Source: Epilithonimonas hominis (lineage in GTDB: Bacteria; Bacteroidota; Bacteroidia; Flavobacteriales; Weeksellaceae). Taken from it: 64,000 nt of DNA. Positions 3,145-8,353 of this stretch are shown in pieces. The stretch covers positions 1-64,000 of the forward strand of contig NZ_RJTU01000061.1 of the NCBI RefSeq assembly GCF_003730015.1. Direction: 5' to 3'. Numbering within the stretch: the stretch's first letter is position 1; every line of letters begins with the position of its first letter. The position numbers were made by a program, and so were the translations under genes. The notes beneath the pieces are model-generated. The model saw only the letters and a program-made list of their open reading frames with translations, did not search any database and had not been told where the DNA came from.

Positions 3145-3217
3145 ATCTGTTACAGATTATTGTTGGGACTTAATATAATATCTGCTCTCTCAGAAAAAAA
3201 ATTCTACATTTGCATCT

Positions 3218-3577
3218 ATGTTCATTCGGGGAAACAAAATATTCAGAACGGTATTTTCGGCTTTTGTAGCCGTGAGCTACCTTTTTGTGGTCTTGTTTTC
3301 TGCCGAGCTGCATAATCATAATACGGACATTTTCAAGGATTTATCGTTCAAAAAATCCGAACTAAAAATCACCAAATCCACTCAGGATAAACAAAGTTCC
3401 GGCGACTGTCTTTCGTGTCATTTCGTAGCCACGGGCAACTCGCTACTGCCGGAGCAGTTCACATTTCATTTCGAAAATTATACCCAGGAAGTTAAAACGA
3501 TCATTTCCATACAGGAAAAAATATGGTCTCAGACCAAGTTCACTTTCCAGCTGCGTGGGCCGCCAACTATTTCCTGA
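3218..3577 (+). CDS. small membrane-anchored protein with CxxCH and RGPP motifs (HYC_CC_PP-like)
   Basis: 119 aa. Hydrophobic segment at about 11-29 (signal or anchor), then LHNHN at 31-35, CLSCHF at 64-69 and a C-terminal LRGPP at 112-116. Short proteins with a His/Cys pair and a terminal PP motif are commonly found before TonB-dependent metal receptors in Bacteroidota, and here the next gene is such a receptor. The His and Cys residues could bind a transition metal in the periplasm; that is inference. A TACATTTG box at 3205-3212 lies only five bases before the ATG, so the transcript may be nearly leaderless. Confidence 0.65.
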   Translation: MFIRGNKIFRTVFSAFVAVSYLFVVLFSAELHNHNTDIFKDLSFKKSELKITKSTQDKQSSGDCLSCHFVATGNSLLPEQFTFHFENYTQEVKTIISIQEKIWSQTKFTFQLRGPPTIS

Positions 3578-3654
3578 TTTCGTTTTTCTCAGCAACCAAT
3601 TGAGAATCTCTTTTTCGGAACAATCCCATTTATTTGCTTTTAAAATAAGTCTTA

Positions 3655-3787
3655 TTTGGCAGCTTTATCCGTCTTCCGTTCCCGCTTTTTTCTGTCATTA
3701 CGAATGCAGTTTCAAGATCTATAGACAATTTGTCCATTCGTAATAACAGAAAAAGAGCTCCACTCAAGCCGGGCTGCGTGCAATTCA
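3655..3787 (+). repeat. dispersed repeat, copy A
   Basis: Outer arms: AGCTTTATCCGTCTTCCGTT followed by CCCGCT on the left, and GAGCTCCACTCAAGCCGGGC on the right. The centre is a long hairpin: 3687-3706 pairs with 3735-3754 (19 of 20 bases, TTTTTCTGTCATTACGAATG type). Other copies lie at 26623-26703, 43205-43296 (reverse, diverged) and 50757-50887 (reverse). Confidence 0.85.
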
Positions 3788-3862
3788 CCGTTCCAAATTC
3801 GTCAATAATTAATTTTTTTATTCGATAAGTGCAGCTGCGCTTATCATCATACATTTTATAAA

Positions 3863-6247
3863 ATGAAAAACATTATTAGTCTGATGTTAGTCTTCTGTGG
3901 ACTGGCATTGGTCTCTTCCCAGAAATATACTGTAGAAGGAACCGTTCAGGATTATCATGACAAGACCATGCTGCAAAATGTTACGGTGACCATCGGACCA
4001 TATTCTGCCAAAACAGATCCGTCCGGCAAGTTCAGAATCAGACAAATCCCTGAGGGTAGTTATACTTTGCTGGCATCGCATCCGGATTGCGCGAGTTTTT
4101 CGGAAGCCATAGAAGTTAATAAAGATTTGCATCTTTCCATCAGCCTGGAACATCATGTACACGAGATCGAGTCTGTAACACTTCACGGCAATCATAAAAA
4201 CAATGGGACGCTTGTCATAAAAACGCTGGATCACACTACAATTGAAAGAAATTCGACAGAAAATTTAGGAAATTTACTGAAGAATATTTCTGGTGTGAGC
4301 GGACTGAAAACAGGGAATAACATCGTAAAACCAGTGATTCACGGACTCTACGGAAGCCGGATTTCCATTGTTAACAATGGTGTCAGGATGGCAGAGCAGG
4401 AGTGGGGCGTGGAACATGCTCCCAATATTGATGTCAATAATTTCCAGCATATAGATGTCATCAAAGGTGCATCGGCTCTTCGGTACGGAAGTGATGCTAT
4501 TGGTGGCGTTGTGGTTCTGGAGCCAGAGATTTTCCCTAAAAAAGATACTTTGAAAGGAAATATAGGACTTTCTGGAATATCCAACGGACGGGGTCTTGGT
4601 CTGGATGTCAATCTGGTAAAGGTCTGGAAAAACGGTTGGGCGGTAAAATCGGGAGGTAATCTTCAGAAGCTGGGTGATCAAAGTGCTCCACATTATAATC
4701 TGAAAAATACAGGCTCGGATTTTTCTTCTTTCAATTTTACGGTGCAGAAGAATTCCTTCAAAAGCGGAATATCATTCGATTATTATCTGACGAATCAAAA
4801 TCTTGGGATCCTGCGCGATTCGCACGTTTCTACACCGCGGGATTATGAAGCAGCGATGAACACGCCAATCCCTTTCTACTCAGGAAAGTTCAGTTATGAT
4901 ATAGATAACCCGAGGCAGCTGGTAGAACATCATCTGGCAAAAATTGCTGCATTCAATAGGTTCGAAAACATAGGAAAAATATCGGCGACATACAGTTTTC
5001 AGTATAATCACCGTCAGGAGTTTGATTTGAGGAGAGGAACACTTAGTGAGATTCCGTCCCTTGATTTGGCGCTGATGACGCATCAGTTCAATATCAATGA
5101 TCTTCTGGAAAGAGAAAAATGGTCTTTGGAAACAGGAATTGATGCAGCCTTTCAGAATAATTATTCCAATCCGGCGACGCAGGCAAGAAGACTGATCCCC
5201 AATTATGACAAATATTCAGCAGGCATTTATTCGGTGTTCAAATATAAAATCTCACCACAGCTGAATGCCGAAGCGGGAGTCCGTTATGATTACAATTATT
5301 ATGATGTTACAAAATGGTACAATAAAAGCGATTGGGAAGATTATTATGCGGCAACTTTTCCGCAGTTCTATGTAAAAAAAGATGCCAATAGAGTCTTGAC
5401 AAGACCTAAGCTGACTTTTGAGAACTGGTCTTACAACGCTGGTTTGGAATATCATCCGTCAGCCAGTTTTAATCTGAAATTCAACTATGCAAAAGTAGGA
5501 AGAACACCGAATATTGCGGAGCTTTTTTCAGACGGACTGCACCATTCTGCCGCTATTATAGAGAAAGGCAATATGAATATCAAAAATGAAGAAGGACACC
5601 AGTTCAACTTGGTTGCAGATATCAAATTTGAAGTTCTGAAAGGCTTGGAGATTTCTGCTAACCCATATTTCTTTATCACAAAGAATTTCATTAACCAGAT
5701 TCCGAACGGCGTTTTGCAACTGACACAGGCTGGGACTTTTCCTGTTTGGATCTACCAGCAGATTGATGCCAAAATGTACGGACTGGATTTTGATATTAAT
5801 CTTAACATTACGGATAATCTTTCTTATAAAGGAAGAGGCGCTTACGTCTACGGACAGGACGAAACGAACAATGAACCGCTGATTCTGATGATGCCGCTTA
5901 ATTTTTCGAATACTTTACAGTTTAAAAATCAGAAATGGCACGGATTCTATTTCAATATTGAAAATCAGACCTTTTTATATCAGAACCGATTTCCGAGTCA
6001 TAATCTGGAATATACGGACTATATAGATGGGGAAGAAGTCAATAAGACTGTGGACATCAGCACACCGCCAAGACAATATTCACTATGGAATATTCAGACA
6101 GGGATCAATCTGGCTAAGAATTTTTCTGCTGGTCTTACAGTAAACAACGTCTTCGATATTTCTTACAAGGATTATCTGAACAGAATGCGGTTTTTTGACA
6201 ACGATTTGGGAAGAAATTTCATTCTGAACTTCAGATACAAATTTTAA
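3863..6247 (+). CDS. TonB-dependent outer-membrane receptor, probably metal uptake
   Basis: 794 aa. Signal peptide 1-20 (ends VSSQ), then a CarboxypepD_reg-like beta domain at about 21-105, a plug domain at about 115-230 (LGNLLKNISGVSGLKTGNN, then VIKGASALRYGSDAIGGVV), and a beta barrel ending in an aromatic residue (FRYKF) as usual for BAM substrates. The plug sequence IHGLYGSRISIVNNGVRM resembles zinc/copper-type receptors (ZnuD-like) more than siderophore ones. It lies between a CxxCH small protein and a lipoprotein, forming a likely three-gene locus. Energy would come from the ExbB/ExbD/TonB system at 54-57 kb. Substrate is inferred, not shown. Confidence 0.85.
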   Translation: MKNIISLMLVFCGLALVSSQKYTVEGTVQDYHDKTMLQNVTVTIGPYSAKTDPSGKFRIRQIPEGSYTLLASHPDCASFSEAIEVNKDLHLSISLEHHVHEIESVTLHGNHKNNGTLVIKTLDHTTIERNSTENLGNLLKNISGVSGLKTGNNIVKPVIHGLYGSRISIVNNGVRMAEQEWGVEHAPNIDVNNFQHIDVIKGASALRYGSDAIGGVVVLEPEIFPKKDTLKGNIGLSGISNGRGLGLDVNLVKVWKNGWAVKSGGNLQKLGDQSAPHYNLKNTGSDFSSFNFTVQKNSFKSGISFDYYLTNQNLGILRDSHVSTPRDYEAAMNTPIPFYSGKFSYDIDNPRQLVEHHLAKIAAFNRFENIGKISATYSFQYNHRQEFDLRRGTLSEIPSLDLALMTHQFNINDLLEREKWSLETGIDAAFQNNYSNPATQARRLIPNYDKYSAGIYSVFKYKISPQLNAEAGVRYDYNYYDVTKWYNKSDWEDYYAATFPQFYVKKDANRVLTRPKLTFENWSYNAGLEYHPSASFNLKFNYAKVGRTPNIAELFSDGLHHSAAIIEKGNMNIKNEEGHQFNLVADIKFEVLKGLEISANPYFFITKNFINQIPNGVLQLTQAGTFPVWIYQQIDAKMYGLDFDINLNITDNLSYKGRGAYVYGQDETNNEPLILMMPLNFSNTLQFKNQKWHGFYFNIENQTFLYQNRFPSHNLEYTDYIDGEEVNKTVDISTPPRQYSLWNIQTGINLAKNFSAGLTVNNVFDISYKDYLNRMRFFDNDLGRNFILNFRYKF

Positions 6248-6287
6248 AAACAATTATTAAGTTATAAAAAAACAAAAATTTAAAACA

Positions 6288-6854
6288 ATGAAAAGTAAAT
6301 TCAATTTCAAAAAATTAGTAAGTGTTTCAGCTGCATTATTTTTAATCTTTAATGTCATCTCTTGCCAGAGAGATGAGGATGTAGCAGCAGATGATCTTCC
6401 CCAGGAAGAGCTTACCAAAATCACGCTGAGTGTGAAGGATATTGCCGCAGAGACAACTAAAGAATATAGCTACATTATTGGATCTGGAGCACCCGTTATT
6501 CCGTTAACTGATGGTAAATCCTATGAAGTGACTGTTACGTTCTGGAATGGAAGTGATAATGTGACCCAGGAAATCCGGGATGCGAAAGATGAACATTTTC
6601 TGATCTTTGATTTTCCGAAATCGACAGTTAATCTTACCAGGTTGGATGATGTAACTTCTACAGGGGAACTTGGAAAAGTAGGACTCAAAACGAAATGGGA
6701 TGTGATAAAAGTGGTAGGATCATCTTCACCACTGTTAAAGTTAACCTTGATCCACGAACCGGCATCTGCCAGTGAAGCGCAAAACGGAACAGCGTGGGGA
6801 AGTGTTTCCGGTGGAGAAACTGATGCTGAAGCAACTTTCGGACTGTCCAACTAA
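6288..6854 (+). CDS. lipoprotein downstream of TonB receptor
   Basis: 188 aa. A hydrophobic leader (about 10-23) ends in VISC, with lipobox Cys 26, followed by an acidic stretch (RDEDVAADDLPQEE), so it is a lipoprotein. The mature part is beta-rich with Thr/Ser/Gly strands (ITLSVKD, YEVTVTFWNGSDN) and no catalytic motif. It starts 40 bases after the receptor and shares its transcript, ending at the hairpin at 6876. It may be a surface partner for the receptor substrate. I do not recognise a characterised family; function is by context only. Confidence 0.7.
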   Translation: MKSKFNFKKLVSVSAALFLIFNVISCQRDEDVAADDLPQEELTKITLSVKDIAAETTKEYSYIIGSGAPVIPLTDGKSYEVTVTFWNGSDNVTQEIRDAKDEHFLIFDFPKSTVNLTRLDDVTSTGELGKVGLKTKWDVIKVVGSSSPLLKLTLIHEPASASEAQNGTAWGSVSGGETDAEATFGLSN

Positions 6855-6875
6855 AAACAGGTTTTTTCAATAATC

Positions 6876-6919
6876 AACAAAGGCATCTTTATGTTATGAA
6901 GCTGCCTTTGTTATTTTTT
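6876..6919 (+). terminator. terminator after the receptor/lipoprotein operon
   Basis: Stem AACAAAGGCA (6876-6885) / TGCCTTTGTT (6903-6912) with a 17-base loop that can extend the stem, then ATTTTTT. Confidence 0.75.
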
Positions 6920-6967
6920 CGTTTCTGATAATTATGATTTTTTTATAAGAATCTGTTGGGAATTTAA

Positions 6968-6998
6968 TTTGCAATTCTTCAAAAATTGCCTATTTTTG
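6968..6998 (+). promoter_or_regulatory. promoter of tig
   Basis: TTTG (6968-6971), 19 bases, TATTTTTG (6991-6998); ATG follows at 7019. A full match to the Bacteroidota sigma factor consensus. Confidence 0.75.
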
Positions 6999-7018
6999 CA
7001 ACCTAAAAAATTCAATTA

Positions 7019-8353
7019 ATGAACGTTACAGCAACCAACCATGACGAAGTGAGCGCATTGCTTACAGTAACATTGGAAAAATCTGATTATAAAGAAAAAG
7101 TAGAAAAACAATTGATCAACTATGCAAAAAATGCACAGGTTCCTGGATTCAGAAAAGGAAAAGTACCATTGAGTATGGTTAGAAAACAATATGAAGCAGG
7201 TATCGCTTATGAAGAAATCAATAAACAGATTTCGGAAGCTTTGAATAACTACGTTGCTGAAAATAAATTAAGATTAGTGGGGCAGCCGGTTCCACAGCCT
7301 GTAAACGATTTCAATCATAATGCAGATTCACTTTCTGTAGCATTTGAAGTGGGATATGAGCCGGAATTTACCGTGGACTTGACGCAATATGAAGCGCCAC
7401 ATTATAAAGTAGAAGCATCTGAAAAAGAGATCTCTACAAGCGTAGAAAACATGCAGAAGCGTTTCGCAGAAAGAGTTCCTGAAGAGAAGATCGGAAAGGA
7501 TTCTTATGTGGCATTAGAAGTTTCTCAAGTGGTGGAAGCAGACGCAGAAGGTGAGCATCACCATCAGCCAAAAAACGTAACGGTTTCCAAAGAACAAAAA
7601 GAAGCTTATGATCTTGTAAAGAAACTTAAAAAAGACGAGTCTGTAAAAGTTTCTAAAGAAGATCTTCAGGCAAAAGAAGAATTGGCTAAACAATTAGGTT
7701 TCAGCAAAGAGGAAGCAGAACATCTTCATCATAATGAGGTGGAAGTAACTGTAAAAGATATCTACGGATTAAACCTTGCAGAGCTTAACCAAGAGCTATT
7801 TGATAAAGTTTACGGAAAAGATGAGATCAAATCTGAGGAAGAATTGAGAGCCAGAGTGAAAACTGAATTGGATGAGTATTTCCAACAAAATGCTGATGTT
7901 CATTTCGTAAACAAAATTCTTGAGCAGGTTAATGAAAAACAAGAAGTAAAACTACCTGAGGCTTTCCTTATAAAATGGTTGATGTTCTCTAACCAGAATA
8001 TCACATCTGAAGAGCAGGCAAAAGAAATCCTTGAGAACGAAAAAAGCATTATCAAAGGTCAGATCCTGGAAGGGAAGCTGATGAATGATAATAATATTCA
8101 ATTGGATTATGCAGAAGTTCTGGGGCAAGCTGAGCAGTTGGTAAGAAACCAGTTAGCAATCTACGGAATCCACCATTTAGGAGATGATGAGGTTCAGAAA
8201 TATGCTGCTGAAATGCTTAAAGATGAAAACCAAGTGAGACAAATTTCTTCTGAAGTTGCAATGGCTAAGTTGAAAGACGTAATCCTTGAAAAATCTAAAA
8301 AGAAAGAAACTAAAATCTCTCACGATGAGTTTCTTGAAGAATTGAAGAAGTAA
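7019..8353 (+). CDS. tig: trigger factor
   Basis: 444 aa ribosome-associated chaperone. The N-terminal ribosome-binding domain carries the signature GFRKGKVP at 43-50. The C-terminal chaperone domain (from about 265, ELNQELFDKVYG) is normal. The middle, where other bacteria have the FKBP-type prolyl isomerase, lacks a recognisable FKBP signature; it is a Lys/Glu-rich stretch with two His clusters (EGEHHHQP and EHLHHNE). The prolyl isomerase activity may therefore be weak or absent, which is inference. Own promoter upstream and terminator downstream, so single-gene unit. Confidence 0.92.
   Translation: MNVTATNHDEVSALLTVTLEKSDYKEKVEKQLINYAKNAQVPGFRKGKVPLSMVRKQYEAGIAYEEINKQISEALNNYVAENKLRLVGQPVPQPVNDFNHNADSLSVAFEVGYEPEFTVDLTQYEAPHYKVEASEKEISTSVENMQKRFAERVPEEKIGKDSYVALEVSQVVEADAEGEHHHQPKNVTVSKEQKEAYDLVKKLKKDESVKVSKEDLQAKEELAKQLGFSKEEAEHLHHNEVEVTVKDIYGLNLAELNQELFDKVYGKDEIKSEEELRARVKTELDEYFQQNADVHFVNKILEQVNEKQEVKLPEAFLIKWLMFSNQNITSEEQAKEILENEKSIIKGQILEGKLMNDNNIQLDYAEVLGQAEQLVRNQLAIYGIHHLGDDEVQKYAAEMLKDENQVRQISSEVAMAKLKDVILEKSKKKETKISHDEFLEELKK

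Follow-up and report, generated by a model that had tools for sequence, protein, structure and literature searches.

The 64,000-nucleotide (nt) stretch of Epilithonimonas hominis analysed here (contig NZ_RJTU01000061.1, positions 1 to 64,000; hereafter the window) carries three consecutive genes on its plus strand, on which all window coordinates below are given. The first is a small open reading frame (ORF) of 119 amino acids (aa; 3218-3577) with a hydrophobic N-terminus, an HxH motif at residues 32-34, CLSCH at residues 64-68 and the C-terminal sequence LRGPP-TIS. It is followed, after 285 nt, by a ZnuD-like TonB-dependent receptor of 794 aa with an N-terminal CarboxypepD_reg domain (3863-6247) and, after a further 40 nt that gave no structure on folding, by a lipoprotein of 188 aa with a lipobox ending in VISC and a model in the form of an immunoglobulin (Ig)-like beta-sandwich (6288-6854). 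The unit ends in an intrinsic terminator-type hairpin with a T-run (6872-6915; -19.0 kcal/mol for the fold of 6855-6930), which was revealed by folding and did not appear in a pattern-based terminator scan with a loop limit of 8. Downstream of the hairpin lies the gene for trigger factor, and the host genome, 2.92 Mb in size, also encodes rho. A sequence-only reading of the same DNA had recognised the three adjacent genes, the terminator shared by the last two and the His/Cys motifs of the small protein, all of which we find in place, and had proposed that the trio forms a three-part metal uptake system. Our analysis suggests that the small Cys/His protein is probably no part of a transporter and acts instead as a self-stalling, metal-sensing leader peptide that decides whether receptor and lipoprotein are produced.

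The three genes are found together well beyond this genome. A survey of 148 family genomes gave receptor matches (at E 1e-60 or better) in 107 and matches to the lipoprotein and to the small protein in 95 each, and all 95 lipoprotein-matched genomes fall within the 107 when the lists are compared by eye. The closest named receptor loci found, 80-81% identical, come from an unclassified Flavobacteriaceae, an uncultured Chryseobacterium and Epilithonimonas tenax, in a search that may have passed over records very near the window. We inspected 100 receptor loci, comprising the window, 20 stretches and 79 of 80 named loci (L133, with a cut receptor, was dropped); counting duplicates once (L060 and L137, L062 and L141, L063 and L148, L073 and L110) left 96 distinct loci. 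A leader-type ORF lies upstream of the receptor in 95 of them, the exception being L070 with a transposase-like ORF in front, and the lipoprotein lies downstream in 94, so that the co-occurrence of the three families, a point on which the sequence-only reading hinged, is borne out. By pattern, a lipoprotein-type ORF was detected at most 400 nt 3' of the receptor in 95 of the 100 loci (91 of the 96 distinct ones); the same lipoprotein was recognised by eye, beyond the pattern matches, in L057, L079 and L096, L072 has no downstream lipoprotein and the stretch of L145 ends near the receptor. The gap between leader and receptor ranges from 42 to 907 nt across loci.

Anatomy and conservation of the leader peptide

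The key feature of the locus, which the sequence-only reading had not mentioned, is the RGPP at the C-terminus of the leader (3554-3565), a presumed ribosome-arrest motif that stands three residues before the end. Among 95 distinct leaders the motif reads RGPP in 86, RAPP in five, KAPP in three and RPPP in one, and it is followed by two to four residues in 94 of them and by nine in the other; such an ending is shared by three of the 986 remaining ORFs of 85-190 aa at these loci. The CLSCH of the window leader (3407-3421) is presumed to be metal-sensing by comparison with the CXXC of the leader peptide CruR (PMC9426467), and its CxxC (C64, C67) is placed exactly 45 residues before RGPP. CxxC is found in register in 88 of the 95 distinct leaders, at a spacing of 45 residues in 84, 44 in three and 46 in one. 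The sequence of this spacer is free, 20 of 83 other 45-residue spacers being less than 30% identical to that of the window (lowest value 9%). The segment before the CxxC varies in length, with a standard deviation (sd) of 4.1 among distinct leaders whose start codons were assigned mechanically; with duplicates included, the sd is 4.5 for this segment versus 0.21 for the spacer. A spacing fixed in length and free in sequence would be expected if the CxxC had just left the ribosome tunnel when the motif reached the catalytic centre.

In 23 aligned leaders H32, H34, C64, C67, L112, R113, G114, P115 and P116 are invariant, and Y21, F27 and H68 are nearly so. The C-terminal motif is encoded in 51 different 12-nt versions among the 95 distinct leaders, and therefore it is the peptide and not the DNA that is conserved; 60% of leader substitutions (835 related pairs) fall at codon position 3, which together with the varied motif codings argues that the translated peptide is under selection.

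The conserved residues could also be those of a stable metal chaperone, periplasmic or membrane-anchored, that works in a three-part importer with the receptor and the lipoprotein: HxH and CxxCH are plausible ligands, invariant or nearly so, gene adjacency is conserved, and the hydrophobic N-terminal stretch, visible in the alignment, may point to export. However, a chaperone would not explain why RGPP, a known arrest motif that is rare in other ORFs, is fixed beside the stop codon, and a spacer kept in length without sequence is more readily understood as a ruler than as part of a fold. Leaders of this type also serve other receptors, and proteomics failed to detect any CruR peptides (PMC9426467). 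On balance we regard a chaperone as improbable.

The other receptors came to light in seven stretches (L154-L160) from genomes with a leader match and without a receptor match at E 1e-60. In all seven the leader is followed by a different TonB receptor, which is split into two ORFs in L155; the six intact receptors are 23-27% identical to that of the window, and no lipoprotein ORF is listed between them and the gene for trigger factor. The latter stands next after the receptor in six of the seven and is the gene that follows in the window as well. A comparison of these stretches with window positions 3218-7019 shows the receptor replaced, and the leader kept, at a fixed chromosomal site before trigger factor (six of seven). 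A search across the phylum returned a leader match in 35 of 395 genomes, 26 of them outside the family; in 21 inspected leader loci outside the family a TonB receptor is the next gene or the next but one in 20 (judged by eye); 16 of the leaders have a spacing of 44 residues, one has 47 and four lack CxxC. In one further locus, L230, the leader directly precedes the lipoprotein with no receptor between. Because of its leader anatomy, and because leaders head other receptors without the lipoprotein, we take the small protein to be a probable regulator; of the proposed three-part uptake system, the adjacency of the families and the pairing of receptor and lipoprotein are supported, and the membership of the small protein is not.

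Two kinds of variant leader were observed. Those of Cloacibacterium type (L107 from Cloacibacterium rupense, L159, L160 and L162) keep RAPP and the first Cys and have lost the second (CFSSH, CFNLH), possibly reflecting a change of the sensed metal. Four others (L186, L190, L192 and L193) have one Cys and no CxxC and precede ZnuD-type receptors (with an SPDHA plug motif in L190 and L193) or, in L186, a His-rich protein of outer-membrane type; these are perhaps a different variant of the sensor.

Start, end and downstream gap of the leader

A TAnnTTTG box (TACATTTG) lies at 3205-3212, 5 nt before the leader ATG, and is taken here to be the Bacteroidetes -7 promoter element. In 58 of the 95 distinct leaders the nearest such box ends 4 nt ahead of the start codon, and in four, the window included, 5 nt ahead of it; it lies elsewhere within 25 nt in four and further away in four. 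A box occurs nearby in 153 of 769 control ORFs, whose starts were assigned mechanically, but at 4 nt in none of these and at 5 nt in a single one. Transcription of most leaders should therefore start at the ATG or right beside it, and a near-leaderless start is predicted for this transcript.

This placement also bears on whether the locus might be an ordinary operon under a DNA-binding repressor such as Zur or Fur, with the small ORF incidental. Many metal receptors are Zur- or Fur-controlled, and our check for an operator was limited to a count, not a rigorous one, of 8-mers upstream of 99 leaders; it singled out no palindrome, the frequent 8-mers being A/T-rich (TAAATTAT, TAATTTTG) or TTTGTAAC-like, and a Zur or Fur box, for which the sequence-only reading had advised a search, was not established. 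An incidental ORF would not be expected to be conserved as a translated frame, with its codon-position bias, its motif, its spacing and, mostly, its distance from start to promoter, and we give this explanation very little credence.

At the other end of the leader begins the strongest 78-nt C>G bubble of the window (3560-3637), with 15.4% more C than G, a candidate Rho-utilisation region that covers the leader end and the start of the gap. In distinct leaders, the excess of C over G in the final 180 nt averages +5.2% and is positive in 89 of 95, compared with -3.6% (sd 4.9) in 705 ORFs of at least 200 aa and -5.0% at lipoprotein gene ends. The gap itself (3578-3862), the supposed zone of conditional termination, contains a strong hairpin formed by an inverted repeat with 20-nt arms (3687-3706 and 3735-3754; 95%; z -4.24); when the gaps of 21 loci were folded, only some gave strong structures. 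The hairpin was also considered as a dispersed repeat, which was rejected given four near-matches in the genome, two of them its own arms. An Rfam scan of the window returned only a Flavo-1 RNA (RF01705; 43204-43282, 73.6 bits) and one tRNA, both elsewhere in the window.

Taken together, these features suggest how the leader might work. When the metal is scarce, a ribosome translating the leader would stall at RGPP, three residues before the end, and would cover the C-rich end of the leader mRNA, leaving Rho unable to terminate in the gap, so that receptor and lipoprotein would be made. Plentiful metal would bind the CxxC(H), which at a distance of 45 residues from RGPP would have just emerged from the ribosome tunnel, and release the stall; Rho would then end transcription in the gap and uptake would be shut down. 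The receptor would import the metal, or a metal complex, across the outer membrane, and the lipoprotein would assist, perhaps at the cell surface.

Comparison with CruR and other arrest leaders

The closest precedent is CruR of Bordetella pertussis, the copper-sensing leader of the cruR-bfrG-PepSY operon (bp2923-bfrG-bp2921), in which CXXC and RAPP are 45 residues apart, RAPP is followed by three residues and a C>G bubble lies where the leader ends; copper sensed via CXXC has been proposed to relieve the arrest, upon which Rho stops transcription in the gap, and lengthening the spacing by five residues spoiled copper control (PMC9426467). CruR arrests in vitro, and RAPP and RGPP have been named as the most robust arrest motifs (PMC12992588). 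Both operons consist of three genes, with a small leader of putatively exported type first, a long gap and a TonB receptor next, and the two leaders agree in a CXXC and a C-terminal R-x-P-P 45 residues apart, in the three residues after the motif and in the C>G bubble at the leader end. They differ in that the window leader lies outside the Pfam DUF2946 cut-off, has RGPP for RAPP and conserves the histidines of HxH and CxxCH; its operon has a ZnuD-like receptor with a carboxypeptidase-regulatory domain, and the third gene encodes a lipoprotein and not PepSY_TM. In addition, arrest has been demonstrated in vitro for CruR, whereas the window leader is known here from its sequence. We consider it likely, though well short of certain, that the three genes form one unit whose first gene acts as a CruR-like nascent-chain metal sensor and controls the ZnuD-like receptor and the lipoprotein.

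As regards descent, the window leader gave no Pfam match (it stays below the gathering cut-off of PF11162); PF11162 matched weakly in five of 23 leader relatives (best E 0.021) and in none of a set of 20 relatives, and a profile-profile comparison of the leader family with eight or four proteobacterial leaders was not significant. Common descent therefore rests on the shared anatomy and on a bridge leader, L185 from another Bacteroidota family, which matches the profile of the window family at E 4.4e-10 and scores 27.2 bits with DUF2946 against a cut-off of 23.7. Several features of DUF2946 leaders are present in the window, namely the CXXC, the C-terminal motif of RAPP type, the spacing of 45 and a first gene followed by a 285-nt gap and a TonB receptor. 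Of five proteobacterial DUF2946-type leaders inspected, two are identical to each other, and the four different ones have spacings of 45, 45, 45 and 46; one of them precedes an annotated TonB-dependent copper receptor. Judged by these comparisons, the window leader is probably a diverged relative that is CruR-like in its working and no formal member of DUF2946. The commonest curated match of the leaders, below threshold and in nine of 23 members, is the NCBIfam LIC10965 family; in Leptospira, LIC10965 and the TonB receptor LIC10964 are up 9.73- and 3.46-fold in host-adapted cells (PMC3953431). A plasmid search with the window leader as query gave no match.

Arrest by such a motif need not imply a metal. 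RAPP or RGPP leaders carrying localisation signals were initially gathered from upstream of secA, secDF and yidC genes (PMC10987492), and the window leader might likewise sense protein export, that is Sec or YidC activity, as do SecM, ApdA and ApdP. Here, however, the downstream genes encode a metal-type receptor and a lipoprotein, and 88 of 95 distinct leaders carry CxxC at a fixed distance from the motif, which makes export sensing a distinctly poor candidate.

Several observations weigh against the model of a CruR-like metal sensor or limit its reach. CxxC is missing from its usual register in seven of the 95 distinct leaders: four (L066, L067, L107 and L151) lack it altogether and three (L068, L150 and L152) carry it 51 or 52 residues away, and leaders of Cloacibacterium type retain RAPP yet have lost the second Cys. 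No TAnnTTTG box was found within 60 nt in 25 of the 95 leaders. Receptor gene ends are also slightly C-rich over G (+0.8%), within the gap itself C exceeds G in no more than 63 of 99 loci, and the excess in the leaders may follow partly from amino-acid content. CruR remained copper-responsive when its spacing was changed by one or two residues (PMC9426467), and its behaviour therefore leaves the strictness of the 45 residues in the present family unexplained. The missing Pfam match and the non-significant profile comparison point the same way. Copper-related RAPP/RGPP leaders are reported as absent from Bacteroidota, where TonB-related ones are present (PMC12992588), which argues against copper as the signal here. 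Finally, the locus sequences are related, and the counts given above do not represent independent events.

Parts of this picture are already in print: CruR itself (PMC9426467), a survey of CutF-like leaders that includes Bacteroidota and TonB neighbours (PMC9973294), and, for Gram-negatives as a whole, the occurrence of RGPP/RAPP leaders ahead of TonB receptors (PMC12992588). The survey comprises 5,334 CutF-like or DUF2946-like proteins, 40% of them in Bacteroidota when normalised and 19% otherwise, and genes for TonB-like proteins often follow them; not all members are said to be copper-specific. CutF is described as opposite in sense to CruR, and the part of the survey consulted makes no mention of an operon of the window type, of a fixed spacing or of the lipoprotein (PMC9973294). 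The experiments described in the available part of PMC12992588 concern Streptomyces leaders, CruR and known Sec-related leaders, with no Bacteroidota leader before a receptor among them. Our literature search, which took in zinc and copper receptors of Chryseobacterium, Flavobacterium and Riemerella, and the paper sections consulted gave no description of the window-type operon or the lipoprotein family, and none of a 45-residue ruler in Bacteroidota or of a near-leaderless start.

Receptor, lipoprotein and the metal concerned

The sequence-only reading had likened the receptor plug to zinc and copper receptors, and this likeness is confirmed. Plug, TonB beta-barrel and CarboxypepD_reg domains all score above their Pfam cut-offs, and among solved relatives ZnuD ranks best by sequence with a first profile (96.6 bits; OprC second with up to 73.8) and with another family profile (85.5 bits, followed by the colicin I receptor with 70.2 and OprC with 63.8). 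The receptor model, with a predicted local distance difference test (pLDDT) score of 82.5, superimposes on ZnuD with Z 36.6 and a root-mean-square deviation (rmsd) of 2.4 over 573 aligned residues, in agreement with Foldseek; OprC of Pseudomonas aeruginosa is close behind (Z 35.3, rmsd 2.5, 570 aligned), and another ZnuD entry gives Z 35.4. Neither curated family is reached, the scores being 65.3 of 950 bits for ZnuD (NF038289) and 74.1 of 472.45 bits for OprC (TIGR01778), and the window receptor differs from ZnuD further by its extra N-terminal domain. OprC binds copper through a Cys, whereas the cysteines of the window receptor are confined to positions 12 and 76, with none in plug or barrel.

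Zinc in ZnuD of Neisseria meningitidis (4RDR, 4RDT) is bound by D99, H100, E340 and H499 (PMC4557270). With an offset of 14 applied between chain and paper numbering, D99, H100 and H499 stand opposite E184, H185 (4412-4417) and H560 (from 5540) of the window receptor in the profile alignment; E184, H185 and H560 are invariant in 25 of 25 aligned receptors. The three of the four zinc ligands that were mapped thus have invariant counterparts.

The lipoprotein has no recognised family, as the sequence-only reading had it: for the window protein no Pfam family comes near its cut-off and no NCBIfam family was assigned, Pfam matches of 28 members are weak and scattered, and a sequence profile run against the PDB returned nothing convincing (best E 0.35). 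Its model (pLDDT 87.4) forms an Ig-like sandwich for which Foldseek gave no match at E 0.001 or better, by which a relative may have been missed; the best Z in a second look, 6.8 for RhoGDI (rmsd 3.5 over 107), is at the level of common arrangements. Across 28 sequences the invariant residues, besides the start Met, are C26, H103, G132, H156, G176 and D179. The N-terminus CQRDED, with R for K at +3 followed by D and E, comes near the signal C-X-K-(D/E)2-X for surface export of Bacteroidetes lipoproteins (PMC5080379), and the protein is perhaps surface-exposed; in relatives the N-terminus varies (for example CNRSDD, CRNDDD and CQRNGS), and positions +2 to +7 are devoid of acidic residues in seven of 97. 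In many lipoprotein matches an internal TAA was noted, which we take for read-through of the match past the natural stop, two genomes that were opened showing ordinary full-length ORFs.

The lipoprotein profile matched in 120 of 295 genomes of the class (Bacteroidia), spread over 75 of 156 genera. In 20 chosen stretches from 19 genomes the receptor, recognised by profile, lies directly upstream in 13 and a leader-type ORF is present in 11; both occur in nine and neither within the stretch in five. Many distant members (L207-L238) share an N-terminal segment of NEEELITT type, and in L226 a gene for a Fur-superfamily regulator (5876-6313), for which no NCBIfam cut-off was reached, directly follows the lipoprotein. 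Judging by the place of the receptor nearest ZnuD and OprC in sequence and modelled fold, receptor and lipoprotein look like a metal-uptake pair.

Which metal is sensed and imported can be answered tentatively. Zinc is our first choice, at somewhat below even chances, and is slightly favoured over copper because three of four ZnuD zinc ligands align with invariant residues. Copper, the less probable of the two, is a candidate because of CruR itself and because the OprC-like fold is nearly as close. Another substrate, haem included, accounts for what is left, at a probability of about one in four in our estimate. More specifically, the receptor might take haem or a metallophore while the leader senses something else: haem and haemoglobin models give the best NCBIfam matches, with 128.7 and 126.4 bits against cut-offs of 323.75 and 316.85, haem receptors share the same region and so leave the substrate assignment loose, and ZnuD, too, at one time carried the wrong annotation of a haem transporter (PMC4557270). 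Against this stand ZnuD as the best solved relative by sequence and by fold and the invariant residues opposite its zinc ligands, and we think a substrate other than zinc or copper unlikely on these terms, though less so than a chaperone.

The leader alone cannot decide the metal, since the same ruler occurs at a CzcC-type efflux operon of Cupriavidus and DUF2946 genes of Caulobacter appear in a Zur study. On Cupriavidus plasmids and megaplasmids, small proteins (L195:1427-1819 on the minus strand, L196, L197 and L199) carry CxxxC 45-46 residues before RPPP, RAPP or RGPP. One of the four lies directly upstream of the TolC gene at the CzcC position on pMOL30, and the others are its three relatives; by this position we assume it to be CzcI. 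The Cupriavidus sequences suggest that leaders of zinc, cobalt and cadmium efflux may use the same ruler; CzcI and CzcI2 have been said to be without a C-terminal proline motif (PMC9973294). In Caulobacter, the DUF2946 genes CC1775 and CC2720 are among those lowered in the Zur study, and CC2720 lies beside czrCBA and has a Zur-type site listed for it, which connects leaders of this kind with zinc (PMC4176598). A bolder proposal, that a near-leaderless zinc arrest leader with a 45-residue ruler is the switch of a Bacteroidia-wide zinc-capture unit, in which a new surface lipoprotein passes the metal on to a ZnuD-like receptor, seems to us doubtful as a whole.

TonB receptors are many in Bacteroidota and mostly of unknown substrate. 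If the CruR-like reading of the window leader is correct, members of this phylum would control metal receptors by ribosome stalling, with the same sensor geometry of 45 residues as in Bordetella, and the leader would offer a test, readable from genomes, for metal-responsive receptors. It would also link a widespread lipoprotein family, found in 120 of 295 genomes of the class, to metal uptake. Should the same ruler indeed operate in efflux leaders of CzcI type, Proteobacteria and Bacteroidota would have in common one ancient sensing device in which the metal is exchangeable.

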